Positions 54,369 through 63,446 of a stretch of 64,000 bases of DNA are shown piece after piece. Every line of letters begins with the position of its first letter. The first letter of the stretch is position 1. The stretch lies in NCBI RefSeq assembly GCF_001435845.1, contig NZ_CM003596.1, forward strand, positions 558,001 to 622,000. Reading direction: 5' to 3'. The position numbers and the translations under genes are program-made. Under the pieces are notes generated by a model. That model saw nothing but the letters and a program-made list of their open reading frames with translations. It was not told the DNA's origin and ran no database searches. Source of the stretch: Psychrobacter sp. P11G3 (GTDB lineage: Bacteria; Pseudomonadota; Gammaproteobacteria; Pseudomonadales; Moraxellaceae).

Positions 54369-54530
54369 ATGGCGCACAAAAAGAAGAACGTCCGCAAAAA
54401 ACTTTGCCCTGTCTGCGAGCGCGAGTTTAGCTGGACTAAGAAGCTAGATAAAAACTGGGAGAGCATGGTCTATTGCTCCGACCAATGCCGACGGGTGAAA
54501 AAATATGAAGGGCTAGATCATCAGAAGTAA
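54369..54530 (+). CDS. DUF2256 zinc-ribbon protein, copy 1
   Basis: A 53-residue protein too short for routine gene calling. It has two CxxC-type pairs: CPVC near the start and CSDQC near the end, around FSWTKKLDKNW. This is the DUF2256 pattern, a presumed zinc finger. It begins at the ATG at 54369, a weak GGAT upstream, and ends with TAA at 54530. In other bacteria this family often lies near cryptochrome/photolyase genes; none is seen here. It is followed 45 bases later by a second member. Confidence 0.88.
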   Translation: MAHKKKNVRKKLCPVCEREFSWTKKLDKNWESMVYCSDQCRRVKKYEGLDHQK

Positions 54531-54575
54531 GATGTTACCACAACACAAATAGTTAGAAGTAGATGGGAGCAAATA

Positions 54576-54722
54576 ATGGCACATAAAAAAGTAAACCTAC
54601 CGCAAAAAACCTGCCCCGTCTGCCAGCGCCCGTTTACGTGGCGTAAAAAGTGGGAGAAAGACTGGGAGCAGGTGATTTATTGTTCTGAGAAGTGTCGGCG
54701 AGGGAAAGCAAAAGATGAATAG
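54576..54722 (+). CDS. DUF2256 zinc-ribbon protein, copy 2
   Basis: A 48-residue protein with CPVC near the N-terminus and CSEKC near the end, around [11 protein letters not shown]. It shares the layout and about half its residues with the copy upstream, so it is a tandem paralogue. GGGAG lies 7 bases before the ATG. A strong terminator follows at 54731-54770, so the pair may form one transcript with the TolB-like gene upstream. Confidence 0.9.
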
Positions 54723-54969: not shown

Positions 54970-55797
54970 TTAGGGTCTTGAGAATTTAAACATCTCTTCA
55001 TAGTCTATGACATCGTCTTGGTTATCGTCCACTTCAATAGTAAGGGCAGTATTACCTGTTACTCGAGCGTAACGCGTGCGTGGTTCTGATAATCCAGTCC
55101 CCGCATTGCCATCATAAATTATTGTAGTAGTTAATTGACCAGTAACAGCATCAACAGTGTAGTTACCCCATTCCATACCATTTTCGGAATTATCGACTGA
55201 CCTATCCTCGTCAACTTGCAAGTAGATATAAGTACCGTTTTCTAAGAATGCTAAGCCCAGTAGCTCGTTGTCATCAGCATCATCGAAATCCCAAGGTCCT
55301 AAAATACTTTCAGACTTAGTTTCTGAGAAACGATAGCTTTCGTTACTATCAATGATGCCATTTCCGTTTTCATCTACTTTCAGGATAAATTTACCGTTAG
55401 ATACCTGAGCATAACGCATGACAGAATCTGATAATCCAGAGGTACCGTTTTTATCAAAGATAGGCGTAGCGGTTAGTTTGCCTTCTGTACTACTGACGCT
55501 ATAACTGCCTAATTCCATACCATTTCCAGCTTCACTGGTTGATTGGCTACTATCGACTTGGGTCTGTATATAAGTCCCATCATCCATGAATATAATAGTT
55601 GATAACTCTCCACTAGCGGTATCGTCGCTACTCCACATGCCGACGATTTCAGTATCAATATTGGGCTGATCAGGTTGTGTAACATCTGGTTGATCAGGTT
55701 GCGACGTCGGTGATTCATCAGAATCAGAGTCACTACCACATCCCTGTAAAATCAGTGCTGTTGTCATGGCTAATAATGCTAGTTTAAATGATTTCAT
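54970..55797 (-). CDS. Lipoprotein with two tandem repeats, each with an EF-hand-like loop
   Basis: A 275-residue predicted lipoprotein (lipid Cys20, then a Ser/Asp-rich linker with DQPD repeats). The rest is two tandem repeats of ~107 residues (about 51-157 and 166-272). Each begins IVG(M/P)W or ILGPW, has a GNGMELGSY/ENGMEWGNY segment and ends in a 12-residue calcium-loop-like motif: Asp142 to Glu153 (D-E-N-G-N-G-I-I-D...E) and Asp257 to Glu268 (D-D-N-Q-D-D-V-I-D...E). The EF loops fit the canonical positions 1, 3, 5, 9 and 12. Family unknown. AAGGAG precedes the ATG. Confidence 0.8.
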   Translation of the reverse strand: MKSFKLALLAMTTALILQGCGSDSDSDESPTSQPDQPDVTQPDQPNIDTEIVGMWSSDDTASGELSTIIFMDDGTYIQTQVDSSQSTSEAGNGMELGSYSVSSTEGKLTATPIFDKNGTSGLSDSVMRYAQVSNGKFILKVDENGNGIIDSNESYRFSETKSESILGPWDFDDADDNELLGLAFLENGTYIYLQVDEDRSVDNSENGMEWGNYTVDAVTGQLTTTIIYDGNAGTGLSEPRTRYARVTGNTALTIEVDDNQDDVIDYEEMFKFSRP

Positions 55798-56358
55798 TTT
55801 TATCTCTCCTTGATTTAAAAATATAAAATCTCACTCAGCTGAAAGTCAGTGCCTTGCATCTCCTTATTATGTTAATTAAAGAATATATAAATCAGTATTT
55901 ATGAATATAACAAACATTTTTCAGTTAATCCAATCCAAAAAGTATTTTCTAAATGAGTAAAATGGAGAGGTTGGTTATGAAATAAAAAGAGTGTAAAAGC
56001 GAGAAGAAGCTGTAAAAAGTAAATTTATTAGCGAAAAGGTCAAAGTATTAAAGGTTCGAAGAGCTTTTTCGAGATACTGTTACTGGAAGATAGTGAACAA
56101 TAAAAGTATCTATTTAAAAAATTGGCAGATATATAATTAAACGCCGTCTCCTTTATTGACTGCATTTCTACTGAATGAAAGAGATAAAGGAGACGGTATA
56201 TTTAAACGTCATAGCTACATATATTTTTTGAAATCGATTTAAACGTAAGAAAGTTAGTTACTACAAATTGGGTTTCAACTATTCTTTAGCAGTTTTTATA
56301 CTCTAACTTTCACGCTCAGTATGAATTTCTAATTGATCACGACTGAGTTTATCACCAG
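55798..56358. other. Long gap between the lipoprotein and symporter genes
   Basis: This gap holds no intact ORF. It contains a 13-base inverted repeat (CCGTCTCCTTTAT at 56144-56156 and its complement at 56184-56196, loop 27 bases) and a decayed metH fragment (56261-56357). The inverted repeat lies 160 bases past the symporter stop and has only a weak T-rich tail, so it may be a terminator or a boundary. Confidence 0.6.
56261..56357 (-). pseudogene. Decayed copy of the metH 3' end
   Basis: Read on the minus strand in one gapless frame, these bases encode a tail matching the last ~31 codons of metH: KLSRDQLE, then TER, then KTAKE, then LKPNL and a stop. Both Trp codons of metH are turned into TAG stops. 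By hand I count about 70 of 93 matching bases with no gaps. It begins directly after the symporter stop. It is a remnant, not a gene. Confidence 0.85.
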
Positions 56359-57288
56359 TTACTTAGCATCTCTCTTAGCAAAAATATTCGCAACCAACGC
56401 ACCACTAAAGTTATGCCACACGCTAAAGATTGCACTCGGTAAGGCCGCGACAGGGTTGAAATAAGTCGCTGCAAGGGCAGCGCCTAGACCAGAGTTTTGC
56501 ATGCCCACTTCCACCATAATCGCGCGACGTTGTCTCTCCGTAAATCCAGACAAGCGAGCGATTACATATCCCAAGGTATAACCCGTCATATTGTGCAAGG
56601 CAACGACGATAAAGACGATAGCACCACTATCTAAGATGGTTGCTTTAGACACGGCAACCACTGCCGCGATGATGATAGAGATACCCAATACCGACACCAT
56701 CGGTAATACCTCGGTGACGAACTCGATCTTTTTACCCAAAAATTTATGAAAGATAACACCCAATAAGATAGGCAAGATGACGATTTTAGTAATGGTCATC
56801 ATCATACTGGCCAAATCGATATCAATCAGCTGCCCCGCAAAAACATTTAATAGAATCGGGGTCAAAAAAGGCGCAAGCAGGGTAGAGATAGAGGTAATCG
56901 CCACACTCAAAGCGACATCACCTTTGGCTAAGAACGTAATCACGTTACTAGACGTACCGCCAGGGCAACAGCCAACCAAGATAACACCAACTGCGATTAA
57001 AGGATCAAGGTTGAAAATGACCGTCAATAGGTAAGCAATGAGTGGCATGAGCATAAACTGCGCTAATAGCCCTACCAATACAGGTTTGGGTCGTTTTACA
57101 ATCTCTAGGAAATCTTCCGTTTTGAGCGTCATGCCCATTCCAAACATAATGATGCCAAGTATGGGAACGATTAAAAAAGCCAACGAGGCAAAAAATTCAG
57201 GAAAAATAAATCCCAAAACAGCACTGACCAATGCCCAAATTGCAAAAGTTTTGCCAATCCAACTAGAAAGTAATGCAATCTGATTCAT
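56359..57288 (-). CDS. Bile acid:sodium symporter-family (BASS) transporter
   Basis: A 309-residue membrane protein with about nine to ten helices. The signatures GCCPGGTSSNV (cation-binding crossover) and EVGMQNSGLG are those of the BASS family. The substrate is unknown: pantoate, pyruvate and other acids are known for relatives, and sodium coupling is typical. I start at the ATG at 57288; the frame extends to a TTG. It sits between intact metH and a decayed metH tail, so it may have been inserted there. Confidence 0.9.
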   Translation of the reverse strand: MNQIALLSSWIGKTFAIWALVSAVLGFIFPEFFASLAFLIVPILGIIMFGMGMTLKTEDFLEIVKRPKPVLVGLLAQFMLMPLIAYLLTVIFNLDPLIAVGVILVGCCPGGTSSNVITFLAKGDVALSVAITSISTLLAPFLTPILLNVFAGQLIDIDLASMMMTITKIVILPILLGVIFHKFLGKKIEFVTEVLPMVSVLGISIIIAAVVAVSKATILDSGAIVFIVVALHNMTGYTLGYVIARLSGFTERQRRAIMVEVGMQNSGLGAALAATYFNPVAALPSAIFSVWHNFSGALVANIFAKRDAK

Positions 57289-57410
57289 AGCCTGTCTCAA
57301 AATAATAAAGTAGACAATAATCTAGCATGGTTCTTGTCAGTAAATGATAAAAGTATTTTGCTATGAACGTAGCGATAAGTTTGCTGATGGTGGGCAAAAT
57401 AGTCTGCCAT

Positions 57411-57450
57411 AAAAAATGGCTTACCCATATTAAATGAGTAAGCCAAAAAA
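57411..57450 (-). terminator. Terminator of metH
   Basis: TTGGCTTAC-CAT and its complement form the stem; the minus strand then reads CCATTTTTTATGG. It begins ~38 bases past the metH stop and lies before the symporter gene. Confidence 0.82.
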
Positions 57451-57487
57451 TAACTATCAAGTTTCTATAACTTGATTAGCCAATCGA

Positions 57488-60400
57488 CTACAAGTTCGGA
57501 TTTAACCATTTCTCAGCAGTCTTCATATCCCAGCCTTTACGCTCAGCATAACTTTCTAACTGGTCACGACTGATTTTACCGACGTTGAAGTACTCACTAT
57601 CAGGATGCGAGTAATAGAATCCGCTGACCGATGACGCAGGCCACATCGCATAGCTTTCAGTTAGCGTTGTACCGATAGCATCGACCGTACCGAGCCAGTC
57701 AAACAACTTACCTTTTTCCGTATGCTCAGGGCAAGCAGGGTAGCCAGGTGCAGGGCGGATACCAACATACTTTTCTTTAATCATCTCATCATTGGTGAGT
57801 GACTCAGTCGGCTGATAGCCCCAATACTCTTTACGGATGAGTTCATGTAGATGCTCGGCAAAGGCTTCGGCTAAACGGTCAGATAGCGCCTGTACCATAA
57901 TGGCATTGTAGTCATCGCCTGCCGCTTTGTATTGCTCAACCAGTGCTTCTGTACCGACGATGGAGACAGTAAAGCCGCCCAAGTGATCGGTATGCGTCTC
58001 TGATGGCGAGATAAAGTCTGCCAAGCTAAAGTTTGGCTTGCCACTGGCTTTATCGCTTTGCTGACGTAAATGCTCAAATTGGTAGGTCGGTTTACCGCCA
58101 TCAGCAGGCGCATTGTCATAGACGGTGACCGTATCTGCACCAGTACGGCGCGCGGGCATCAGTTTAAACACCCCTTTCGCTACGATTGATTTCTCATCAA
58201 TCATCTTTTGTAGCAGCTCTTCTGCATTTTCAAACAGATCGCGAGCTGCTTCACCGACCACATCATCTTGCAATATTTTTGGGTATTTACCGGTCAGACC
58301 CCAAGAGATAAAGAATGGTGTCCAGTCAATATAAGGCAGTAGGTTGGCGATTGGATAGTCATCCAATATCACTTGTCCCAGTTTATTCGGCACTGGTGGT
58401 ACATAAGTTTCCCAGTCGTACTGAAAGCCAATCTTGACCGATTCGGCATAGGTGACTTTGGCGGCTTTTGGTTGACGCTTAGCCAGACGCTCACGTACCT
58501 TGATATATTCTTCACGGGTCTCATCGATGAGCGCTTGACGGTGCTCTTTTGATAGCAATTTGGTCACCACGCCGACTGAGCGCGAAGCGTCCGATACATA
58601 GATGACGCCATCATTTTGATATTGCGGCTCGACCTTGACGGCAGTATGCGCTTTCGAGGTCGTTGCACCGCCGATCATCAATGGTAGTGTCATGCCGCGC
58701 TCTTGCATTTGCTTGGCGACATAGACCATTTCATCGAGACTTGGGGTAATCAGACCAGATAGACCGATGATGTCGACTTTTTCTGCGATGGCAGTATCGA
58801 GGATTTTTTCACATGGCACCATCACGCCCAGATCGACAATATCATAGCCGTTACAGCCCAGCACCACGCCGACGATGTTTTTGCCGATATCATGCACGTC
58901 GCCTTTTACGGTTGCCATTAGGATTTTACCTTTGACTTCGCCTTCGACTTTCTCCGCTTCGATATACGGGTTTAGCCACGCGACAGATTGCTTCATTACA
59001 CGAGCAGATTTCACGACTTGCGGTAGAAACATTTTACCAGCACCGAATAGATCACCGACGATATTCATACCGTCCATGAGTGGCCCTTCGATGACTTCTA
59101 GCGGTTTAGGATACTTTTCCCATGCTTCTTTGGTATCCGCTTCGATAAAGGTCGTCACGCCTTTGACCAGTGCGTGGGCGATACGTTCTTCTACCGTGCC
59201 TTCGCGCCAGCTCATATCGACAGTACTGTCTTTTTTCTTGCCGCCATCTTGGTAGTTTTCAGCAACCGTCATTAGACGTTCAGTCGCATCTTGACCAGTT
59301 TCACCTTGATTGCGGTTGAGCATGACATCTTCGATAGCGTCACGGGCTTCCTTTGGAATATCATCGTACAGCTCAAGCATGGCTGGGTTGACGATACCCA
59401 TGGTCAGACCGTTTTTGATCGCGTGGTATAAGAATACAGAGTTGATCGCTTCACGGATTGGGTTACCACGGAAACTAAACGAGACATTGGATACGCCGCC
59501 CGAGACCATCGCGTTCGGTAGGTTTTCCGTAATCCAACGTGTGGCATTGATAAAGTCAGCGCCATAGTTATTGTGCTCGGTGATACCCGTGGCAACGGCA
59601 AAGATATTGGGGTCAAAGATAATGTCTTCTGACGGGAAGCCTACTTCGTTGACCAGCACGTCATAGCTGCGTTTAGATATTTCAATCTTGCGCTCGTAAG
59701 TGTCAGCCTGTCCGTCTTCATCGAATGCCATAACGATAATCGCGGCACCATAACGCATGCATAATTTGGCACGCTCAACGAACTCAGCGTGACCTTCTTT
59801 TAACGAGATAGAGTTGACGACCGATTTACCCTGCGTACGCTTTAGGCCTTCTTCGATTATGTCCCATTTAGACGAGTCAATCATCAGTGGTACACGGCTG
59901 ATATCTGGCTCACCTGAAACCAAATTGACGAAGTGAATCATCGCCTGCTTGGAATCGAGCATACCTTCGTCCATATTGATATCGACGATTTGCGCGCCGC
60001 CTTCTACCTGATCGCGAGCGACATCGAGTGCTTCGGTATAGGCTTCGGTTTTAATCAAACGTAGGAATTTTTTAGAGCCTGTAACGTTGGTACGCTCACC
60101 GACATTGACAAACAAGCTATCAGAGTTGATTGTAAATGGTTCGAGTCCTGACAAGCGGCAGGCAGGTGCTATCTCAGGGATAACACGCGGTGGATAATTC
60201 GCCACGACTTTAGCAATTTGACGGATATGCTCAGGCGTCGTACCACAGCAGCCGCCCACGATATTTAAGATACCCGCTTTGGCAAATCCTTCGAGTAGGG
60301 CAGCCGTTTCTTCAGCGGTTTCATCATACTCACCAAACTCATTGGGCAGGCCAGCGTTTGGATGCGCAGAGACATAAGTATCAGCGATGTTTGACAATGT

Positions 60401-61291
60401 CTGAATATGTGGGCGCAGCGCATCAGCACCTAGCGCACAGTTAAAGCCAACAGATAGAGGCTTGGCATGGCGGATAGAGTTATAAAACGCCTCGGCCGTT
60501 TGACCAGACAGCGTGCGACCTGACGCATCGGTAATCGTACCCGAAATCATAATTGGCAGCTCAAAGCCGATATCGTCGAACACACCAGTAATCGCAAATA
60601 TCGCCGCCTTGGCATTGAGCGTATCAAAGATCGTCTCAATCAAGATGATATCGACGCCGCCTTCTATTAGGCATAAGGTCGCTTCACGGTAGTTGAGTAC
60701 CAATTCATCAAAGGTAATGTTACGAAAGGCAGGGTCATTGACATCAGGTGATATCGAGCACGTGCGTGAGGTTGGGCCCACGACACCTGCGACAAACCGC
60801 GGCTTCTCAGGCGTCTTGGCGGTAAATTCATCAGCCGCCTCGCGCGCAATCTTGGCTGCTGTTTTATTCAGCTCGGGTACCAAGTACTGCATGTCATAGT
60901 CAGCCATCGACAGACGCGTACCGTTAAAGGTATTGGTCTCGATGATATCTGCACCAGCCAACAGATGATCGTGATGAATGTCTTTAATCATGTGCGGCTG
61001 AGTCAGTACCAGCAGGTCGTTGTTGCCGCGTACATCTTGGTCGATATCAGCAAAACGCTCACCACGATAATCCGCTTCTTCTAGTTTATAGGTCTGAATC
61101 TGCGTACCCATCGCACCGTCTAACATCAAAATGCGTGATGCCATCTGCTCAGTGATACGTGCACGTGCGGTTAGCTGCTGCTCTTTAAATGGAAATACAG
61201 CAGGTGGCGTTAATATAAAGTCATTAGCGGATGAGGAACTAGAGGCGGTATCGGTATGAGAATCGGTTGGTGAGGTCGTCGTTGAAATCAT
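57488..61291 (-). CDS. metH: Cobalamin-dependent methionine synthase
   Basis: MetH transfers a methyl group from 5-methyltetrahydrofolate through cobalamin to homocysteine. All four modules fit in 1267 residues: homocysteine domain (~50-350; [10 protein letters not shown], zinc Cys in [11 protein letters not shown]), pterin domain (~380-640), cobalamin domain (~680-920; [11 protein letters not shown] with the cobalt-binding His) and the AdoMet activation domain (~935-1260; [15 protein letters not shown]). The N-terminus carries a ~30-residue Ser/Thr-rich extension. No cobalamin riboswitch is seen in the upstream gap. Its 3' end is duplicated as a decayed copy at 56261. Confidence 0.96.
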
Positions 61292-61863: not shown

Positions 61864-62418
61864 ATGAAACTTACTAAAATTGCCACCATCGGTACATTGG
61901 CTATCTCAATCGCAGGTCTAAGTGCTTGTAATAACATGATGCCAGCGAAGACGGGTGATATGAAAGCACCAATGCACAGTCAGAGTATGGCTAAGATGAA
62001 TGTTGTACAAATTGCGCAAAGCAATCCTGATTTTTCAGTATTGGTAGAAGCGGTACAAGCAGCAGGTCTAGTCGATATGTTGTCTGACCCTAATGCTCAC
62101 TATACGGTATTTGCACCGACCAATGCCGCCTTTATGCAAGCATTGCAAGAAACCGGTATGACTAAAGCACAGTTATTTGCCAACAAGCCACTATTAACCA
62201 AAGTATTAGGTTATCACGTAGTCGCTGGCGATATGGCTATGTATGCCAAAGATGTGAAGCCTGGTAACGTAATGACCGCTAGCAAAGACACGTTGATGGT
62301 AACTAAAGAAGGCAAATTAATGGATGAAAACGGTCGCACAACGAATATCGTGAAGACTGATATCGCTGCCAACAATGGTGTTGTCCATGTAATCGATAGA
62401 GTATTATTGCCTAAATAA
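61864..62418 (+). CDS. Fasciclin (FAS1) domain lipoprotein, copy 1
   Basis: A 184-residue predicted lipoprotein (signal ISIAGLSAC, Cys22) with a single FAS1 domain. The H1 motif is TVFAPTNAAF and the H2 motif NNGVVHVIDRVLLP. FAS1 domains mediate cell-surface adhesion in many organisms; here an adhesive or envelope role is inference. AAGG lies 8 bases before the ATG. It is followed by a terminator, then a decayed FAS1 tail and the second intact copy. Confidence 0.9.
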   Translation: MKLTKIATIGTLAISIAGLSACNNMMPAKTGDMKAPMHSQSMAKMNVVQIAQSNPDFSVLVEAVQAAGLVDMLSDPNAHYTVFAPTNAAFMQALQETGMTKAQLFANKPLLTKVLGYHVVAGDMAMYAKDVKPGNVMTASKDTLMVTKEGKLMDENGRTTNIVKTDIAANNGVVHVIDRVLLPK

Positions 62419-62840: not shown

Positions 62841-63446
62841 ATGTTAAAGAAGAACTTGTTATCTATCGCAGTTGTAACCGCAGCCATGTCACTAGCAGCG
62901 TGTAACGACACTGAAACTGTTGCAGAGCCAACTGAACCAGAAGCCACTGAAGAAATGGCAGTTGAGCCAGTTGCTGAGACAGAAGCTGTTGAAGCAGAAC
63001 CAATGGCCGAAATGGACATGGAAGCGACTCAAACTATCGCTGAAATCGCAGCAGAAAATGAAAACCTAACTATCTTAACCGCTGCGCTACAGGCTGCTGG
63101 TCTTGATACTATGCTAATGGAAGAAACTAAGCATACTGTATTTGCCCCAACTGATGATGCGTTTGCGCCAGTATTAGAAAAACTAGGCGTGACTAAAGAA
63201 GAGTTGTTGGCCAATACAGATTTGCTAAAAACTGTCCTTCCTTACCATGTACTAGCAATGGAAGTTAAAGCAGCTGATATCCCATACGGTACTGAGATTG
63301 AAACGGCGAACGGTAAAACCATTACTATCAGTGAAGACAACGTAATTACTGATGCTACTGGTAACACAGCAAATATCACTGGTACAGATATCATGGCAAC
63401 CAATGGTGTGGTTCACACTATCGATGCAGTGTTAATGCCTGAATAA
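62841..63446 (+). CDS. Fasciclin (FAS1) domain lipoprotein, copy 2
   Basis: A 201-residue predicted lipoprotein (signal TAAMSLAAC, Cys21) followed by a ~40-residue acidic linker of Glu/Pro/Ala/Val repeats and one FAS1 domain (TVFAPTDDAF, NGVVHTIDAVLMP). It is a divergent paralogue of the first copy, differing mainly by the linker. AAAAAGGA precedes the ATG. A terminator follows. Confidence 0.9.
   Translation: MLKKNLLSIAVVTAAMSLAACNDTETVAEPTEPEATEEMAVEPVAETEAVEAEPMAEMDMEATQTIAEIAAENENLTILTAALQAAGLDTMLMEETKHTVFAPTDDAFAPVLEKLGVTKEELLANTDLLKTVLPYHVLAMEVKAADIPYGTEIETANGKTITISEDNVITDATGNTANITGTDIMATNGVVHTIDAVLMPE

Follow-up and report, generated by a model that had tools for sequence, protein, structure and literature searches.

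Minimal mobile elements of Neisseria are gene sets exchanged by transformation between conserved flanking genes, and a duplicated flank is not known among them. A gene end that occurs twice is described for the cryptic prophage e14 at icd of Escherichia coli K-12, where the displaced end, icdC, has 165 bp and 54 codons (PMC11148124, in its passages on icd). For restriction-modification genes of Helicobacter pylori, insertion with long target duplication has been reported (Nobusato et al. 2000, as cited in the relevant passages of PMC1643837 and PMC4978471). Homology-facilitated illegitimate recombination is defined, in the pertinent part of PMC3240628, by one homologous and one illegitimate joint. 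The sections of PMC10250203 on the core defence hotspots (cDHS) of Pseudomonas aeruginosa propose transfer by homologous recombination in conserved flanks, and site 39 of Streptococcus suis, between rpiA and trmE, is presented as a core defence hotspot in the corresponding part of PMC5398294. The present study deals with a stretch of 64,000 nucleotides (nt) of Psychrobacter DNA, the window (G000:C1:558001-622000, G000 being the genome that holds it), in which the 3' end of the methionine synthase gene metH is found a second time, in decayed form, behind a sodium symporter-like gene. Coordinates without a label are counted within the window, and positions such as -132 or -91 are nt counted back from the end of metH. 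The own end of metH is called tail 1 and the second copy tail 2.

The second metH tail and its recurrence in Psychrobacter

On the minus strand, 56261-56356 was found to match the last 96 nt of metH (57488-57583, minus strand) at 71 of 96 positions, ungapped and from stop codon to stop codon, against 47/96 for the next-best ungapped place of 96 nt in the whole window on both strands. An earlier note, made from the sequence alone, had arrived by hand at about 70 of 93 bases, which is right, and the score, which it wanted checked against chance, lies far above that level. In the anchored alignment the copy begins 8 nt past the symporter stop and corresponds to metH from -91 to the stop, and none of 100 shuffles scored as high. 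Both tryptophan codons have become TAG, as the note had observed, and the translation reads GDKLSRDQLEIHTERES*SIKTAKE*LKPNL*. Tail 2 of the window is an old, trimmed, non-coding remnant. At 71/96, against 47/96 for the next place, chance similarity is excluded, and an origin by chance or from a short conserved element of another kind is hardly conceivable; nothing was found in its favour, E values in relatives go down to 1.3e-36 across about 132 nt of metH coding sequence, and the copies decay and lose their ends.

In a scan of 864 kb of G000 (two 400-kb stretches and the window, with 620 open reading frames (ORFs) of at least 120 amino acids), no gene tail but that of metH had a non-coding copy on the same strand at a distance of up to 12 kb (E<=1e-3), and such copies as a common trait of this genome are ruled out within the 864 kb scanned. 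One inverted copy was noted (92 nt, non-coding, 79%; G000:C1:1652003-1652094 and 1662707-1663639), its source being part of the end of a 310-amino-acid ORF 10.6 kb away.

The survey covered 105 Psychrobacter genomes, 101 of them with a metH match (loci L082-L182). A 210-nt profile of the 101 metH ends was run on up to 6.5 kb 3' of metH in the same genomes, several of these regions being shortened by contig ends, and it detected a second metH tail in 22 of 101 (E<1e-3). Together with the ungapped match, this recurrence bears out the earlier claim that the metH tail was duplicated and that the symporter lies between the copies. The symporter gene stands directly between the tails in 19 of the 22; a VapBC pair is found there in G017 and G044, and a C-terminal symporter remnant only in G071. 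The earlier note had reasoned that second tails in relatives lacking the symporter would speak against its view; tails without a complete symporter in between do occur in these three genomes, with the qualification that G044 keeps a symporter further downstream. At the G071 locus (L165) the C-terminal end of the symporter alone precedes the second tail, about 190-330 nt 3' of metH. By an anchored test in which the 190 nt 3' of the symporter stop were set against 100 dinucleotide shuffles per genome, 26 of 43 genomes showed a trace of the tail (z>=3.4; 0/100 shuffles as high in 25 genomes and 1/100 in one); the 44th symporter genome offered too little sequence. A 43-residue metH-end query against 299 genomes of the family gave two matches per genome in 16 of the 101 matching Psychrobacter genomes and in none of the 169 matching genomes of other genera.

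The second copies of the best-preserved relatives begin at profile position 72-83 of 210. The 12 fullest copies share a common left edge near -132, which gives a full length of about 132 nt, or 44 codons with the stop. Their mean identity to the own metH jumps from 0.33 to 0.79 at -132, a step whose right side is favoured by fitting the register on the 40 nt right of -132; support for the edge itself comes from the profile starts and the local alignments. The metH end was not found in the 72,556 plasmid and 50,697 phage records searched. A foreign origin was considered for tail 2 of G071, for which the own metH tail ranks 94th among the matches; the base make-up of this genome is odd, so the case was not used. 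Tail 2 of G035 and that of G017 are similar to metH tails from other clades, a hint at most.

In 8 of the 22 two-tail genomes, the DNA past tail 2 matches, in register (offset from the stop by a few bases at most), the DNA directly past metH in symporter-less genomes. These are G064 with G061 (86%, 705 nt) and also G031, G076 with G033 (90%, 696 nt), G026 with G024 (77%, 79 nt), G089 with G024 (75%, 115 nt) and others, G065 and G084 with G028 (70% and 59%), G063 with G085 (59%), and G030 with G012 (74%, 208 nt). A direct target repeat around the insert, with a single copy at empty sites, is thus seen in these eight genomes and not at the window locus. There, the DNA past tail 2 matches G023 (99%) and G059 (92%), both of which have the same arrangement; with symporter-less genomes it matches only at least 300 nt past tail 2, at shifted positions in the region of the F6 gene. 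The empty site with one metH tail that the earlier note looked for therefore exists in some symporter-less relatives (G064/G061, G076/G033), but none was found for the window locus. Register by itself would be the same whether the symporter was inserted or was lost when tail 1 and tail 2 recombined.

Variable genes behind metH and their proposed exchange

The symporter lies within 400 nt of metH in 39 of 101 genomes, and in the other 62 the first gene past metH falls in many families or is a singleton. Ten gene families come first past metH in some genomes and first past the symporter in others, and family F6, which follows tail 2 in the window, sits directly 3' of metH in G007, G014, G085 and G093. 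Differing accessory genes at one place beside the conserved metH make this locus a hotspot flanked by a core gene. Among 30 island proteins chosen by hand, 20 match PADLOC models at E<=1e-5, including GajA, GajB, type I, II and IIG restriction-modification proteins, Avs2, Avs4, retron-type reverse transcriptase (RT), DRT2, LmuA, LmuB, OloA and HEC-06-like proteins; VapB, VapC (which carries a PIN domain) and eight others had no match at this threshold. Across the 101 genomes, one or another defence system was noticed directly past metH or the symporter, e.g. Gabija-type, Avs2, Avs4, Lamassu-type, DRT2, retron-type RT or restriction-modification, the Gabija-type label for F31 (G075, G029, G021) resting on the family members F12 and F13. 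Among the papers listed by literature search (11, and the first 8 of 1,152 for a query too broad to give a strong negative), none dealt with this metH hotspot.

The metH ends are mosaic. They were compared in 100 aligned sequences, G049 being excluded for a frame break in metH shortly before the expected end (locus L088), likely an assembly error since this genome is rated 84% complete. The 48 pairs that differ by less than 3% at -1400 to -1000 diverge by 7.0% over the last 132 nt, and distant pairs differ less in the metH tail than in most of the metH body. The blocks between -1000 and -400 rise as well, so metH is mosaic beyond its tail; in the block comparison the upstream blocks form part of the distance with which they are correlated, which raises their correlations. 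G059 and G093, the latter without the symporter, have no mismatch from -822 to -266 and then 41 in the last 265 nt, and this switch at -265 is a visible crossover inside metH. Breakpoints and mosaicism of the kind that transformation-driven exchange leaves are thus present in metH, both in this pair and in the 48 close pairs. Over the final 1052 nt of metH, G022 and G075 show a single mismatch; they diverge from the third base past the stop, where one has the symporter and DRT2 and the other a Gabija-type set (by family). ComEC and DprA domains were detected by a domain scan; they are weak evidence for DNA uptake because both were also found in E. coli within the control set. Transformation of an isolate of Psychrobacter marincola is reported in the relevant part of PMC3364145.

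The explanation that we favour, and to which we give an even chance, is that the metH 3' end is the left arm for the swapping of neighbours by homologous recombination and that tail 2 is a second copy of this arm. The metH end would then act as the left homology arm of a genus-wide hotspot, and Psychrobacter strains would trade the genes that follow, often one anti-phage defence system, by homologous recombination of DNA most likely taken up through natural transformation. Tail 2 would be a spare copy of the arm just past the long-resident symporter gene. Being such a tail itself, it would remain able to pair with incoming DNA made of a metH tail and an island, so that islands may be exchanged behind the symporter while the symporter is not replaced. 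If tail 1 recombined with tail 2, the symporter would be lost, and a clean one-tail site like that of other species would remain.

Several results weigh against this explanation. Among 85 close pairs, divergence in the metH tail is equal whether the DNA past metH is alike (30 pairs, 7.5%) or different (43 pairs, 7.5%), 12 in-between pairs being left out of these averages, and the greater divergence that local drag would give in pairs with different islands was not found. The anchored test showed no tail 2 in 17 of 43 symporter genomes, and no in-register one-tail relative was seen for 14 of the 22 two-tail genomes, that of the window included. Arrival of tail 2 together with the island was suggested in G076 by a contiguous block 90% like that of G033, yet the tail itself agrees at 51/69 with G033, 50/69 with its own metH and 52/69 with G101, so it did not arrive with the island. 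Of 12 contiguous matches of tail plus island, 11 do not exceed metH itself in similarity and therefore show no transfer. Moreover, the same -132 edge past two unrelated cargos is not predicted by exchange at a homology arm.

How defence islands without mobility genes move is an open question, and this locus would keep a physical trace of such movement in the form of a spare core-gene arm. The many one-tail and two-tail species allow direct tests of pairing, exchange and deletion.

Age of the symporter and origin of the repeat

The symporter looks like a long resident and not a newcomer. Its distances follow those of metH (43 genomes, 903 pairs, r 0.93, median ratio 1.04), with a few pairs suggestive of local exchange. 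Six of the 13 genomes in the deepest clade of the midpoint-rooted metH tree have the symporter within 6.5 kb of metH and no tail detectable behind it, though one may have decayed beyond detection. On this tree the linkage of metH and symporter would date from the genus ancestor or earlier, and the symporter would predate tail 2. To account for its occurrence within 6.5 kb, the metH tree requires no fewer than 27 changes, against a shuffled mean of 33, and the patchy distribution is best read as loss or replacement. Homologs outside the genus are 48-54% identical (63 genomes, E<=1e-60), and the outgroup homolog lies away from metH in 10 of 10 genomes checked (three judged by different contigs), hence the linkage is specific to the genus. 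The earlier note took the duplication to mean that the symporter was acquired; a recent arrival finds no support, given the correlation with metH and the tail-less linkage in 6 of 13 deepest-clade genomes. Lying between two copies of a gene end does not by itself make a gene a newcomer.

The shared edge calls for other explanations to be weighed. VapBC pairs fill the symporter's slot in L132 (G017) and L170 (G044). The VapC stop lies either right at the copied metH tail or no more than about 20 nt from it; the VapC frame of G044 looks broken. These two joints may be independent because the two VapBC pairs are 65% identical and that of G017 is closer (81%) to the pair of G081, a genome without tail 2. 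Either cargo was swapped at a joint of great age, or -132 is a preferred site as at icd. The latter is taken up by an unlikely explanation that still deserves serious thought, namely site-determined insertion at metH -132, in which single-gene cassettes carrying a metH tail would rebuild the end and displace the original, as e14 does at icd, by a recombinase that worked in trans or was lost. It would account for the edge near -132 past two cargos, the symporter (nine genomes and the G071 remnant) and VapBC (G017, G044), and its geometry is that of e14/icdC in the passages of PMC11148124 concerned. A displaced end with a fixed crossover edge is indeed found in these 12 genomes, where either tail may be the older one. 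On the other hand, only the cargo genes stand between the tails in the ORF listings of the relatives and the window, hence no recombinase or integrase, and the metH end was not found in the plasmid and phage records searched. In G022/G075, the closest discordant pair, tail 1 is almost identical despite the difference in the symporter, so no donor tail is seen, and the divergence of the symporter tracks that of metH. It is clearly doubtful that -132 is a true insertion site which recombinase-less cassettes (transporter, VapBC) enter again and again, each of them rebuilding the metH end, with the pushed-out end as a second docking arm for defence islands; if true, this would be a cassette system with the end of a housekeeping gene as attachment site.

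Both models of the earlier note may still account for the founding event, from which the first second tail would have come. Tandem duplication of a block of metH tail and symporter, followed by loss of the second symporter, would leave just such a junction between the symporter end and metH -132, and the sequence around the symporter stop is kept in most copies; but no second symporter ORF appears past tail 2 in the ORF listing, no match to symporter positions occurs there among the matches listed (top 14 per genome), the VapBC pairs of G017 and G044 are left unexplained, and so are the in-register one-tail sites unless they are later deletions. We regard it as distinctly improbable. A one-off ancient insertion by homologous or homology-facilitated illegitimate recombination, with the metH end rebuilt and the old tail displaced, appears very unlikely: the one-tail sites of some species and the outgroup homologs away from metH agree with it, but the same slot holds different genes, the symporter is near metH with no detectable tail in the six deepest-clade genomes, and the register is equally that of a deletion between the tails.

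Window features and comparison with known systems

The features of the window locus are collected in Table 1. The symporter scores 299.8 bits with TIGR00841 (cut-off 326.3) and 282.6 bits with the PanS model (cut-off 400), under the cut-off in both cases, and the F6 gene has no match in NCBIfam or Pfam. Further along, two small adjoining ORFs at about 54369-54721 are rich in Cys pairs and have a near-identical layout when read by eye. On the other side of metH, the adjoining ORFs 61864-62418 and 62841-63446 are paralogous, with ends 68% alike, and presumably resemble fasciclin-domain proteins.

Table 1. Features at the metH locus of the window, with the basis of each assignment
Feature	Position	Strand	Basis
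metH, cobalamin-dependent methionine synthase, 1267 amino acids, intact	57488..61291	-	NCBIfam NF007024 and TIGR02082 above cut-off; Pfam domains complete
Tail 1, last 132 nt of metH, stretch duplicated in relatives	57488..57619	-	Starts of the relatives' copies; identity step at -132
Inverted repeat 3' of metH, terminator-like	57417..57445	-	Read by eye
BASS-family sodium symporter-like gene between both tails, 313 amino acids from TTG	56359..57300	-	Pfam SBF
Tail 2, decayed second metH tail	56261..56356	-	71/96 ungapped; reliable homology about 56261-56351 (metH -91 to stop)
Inverted repeat 3' of tail 2, terminator-like	56144..56196	-	Read by eye
Putative lipoprotein gene, family F6, now next after tail 2	54970..55797	-	ORF listing

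In comparison with the known systems, as far as the cited passages describe them, the locus shares with e14 at icd a gene 3' end that is present twice, one intact and one displaced beyond the inserted DNA, here with about 132 nt and 44 codons including the stop. The e14 element is a prophage and carries an integrase gene; here the copies enclose one or two small genes, no recombinase is seen, and the one-tail sites may be deletions. With the long target duplications of H. pylori it has in common the direct target repeats flanking an accessory gene, a genus reported as transformable, one-copy sites elsewhere and the involvement of defence genes; it differs in having a single repeat, with the same left edge in many species, that mostly encloses a transporter gene and leaves the defence genes outside. 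Gene exchange between conserved flanks is also the feature of the minimal mobile elements of Neisseria. Homology-facilitated illegitimate recombination, in the form outlined above, could put a fragment led by a metH tail past the symporter, but its random joints are not expected at the same metH base past two cargos. Like the cDHS of P. aeruginosa and site 39 of S. suis, going by the sections on them, the locus has a slot next to a core gene in which the defence system varies; unlike theirs, this slot contains a copy of the flanking core gene's own end.

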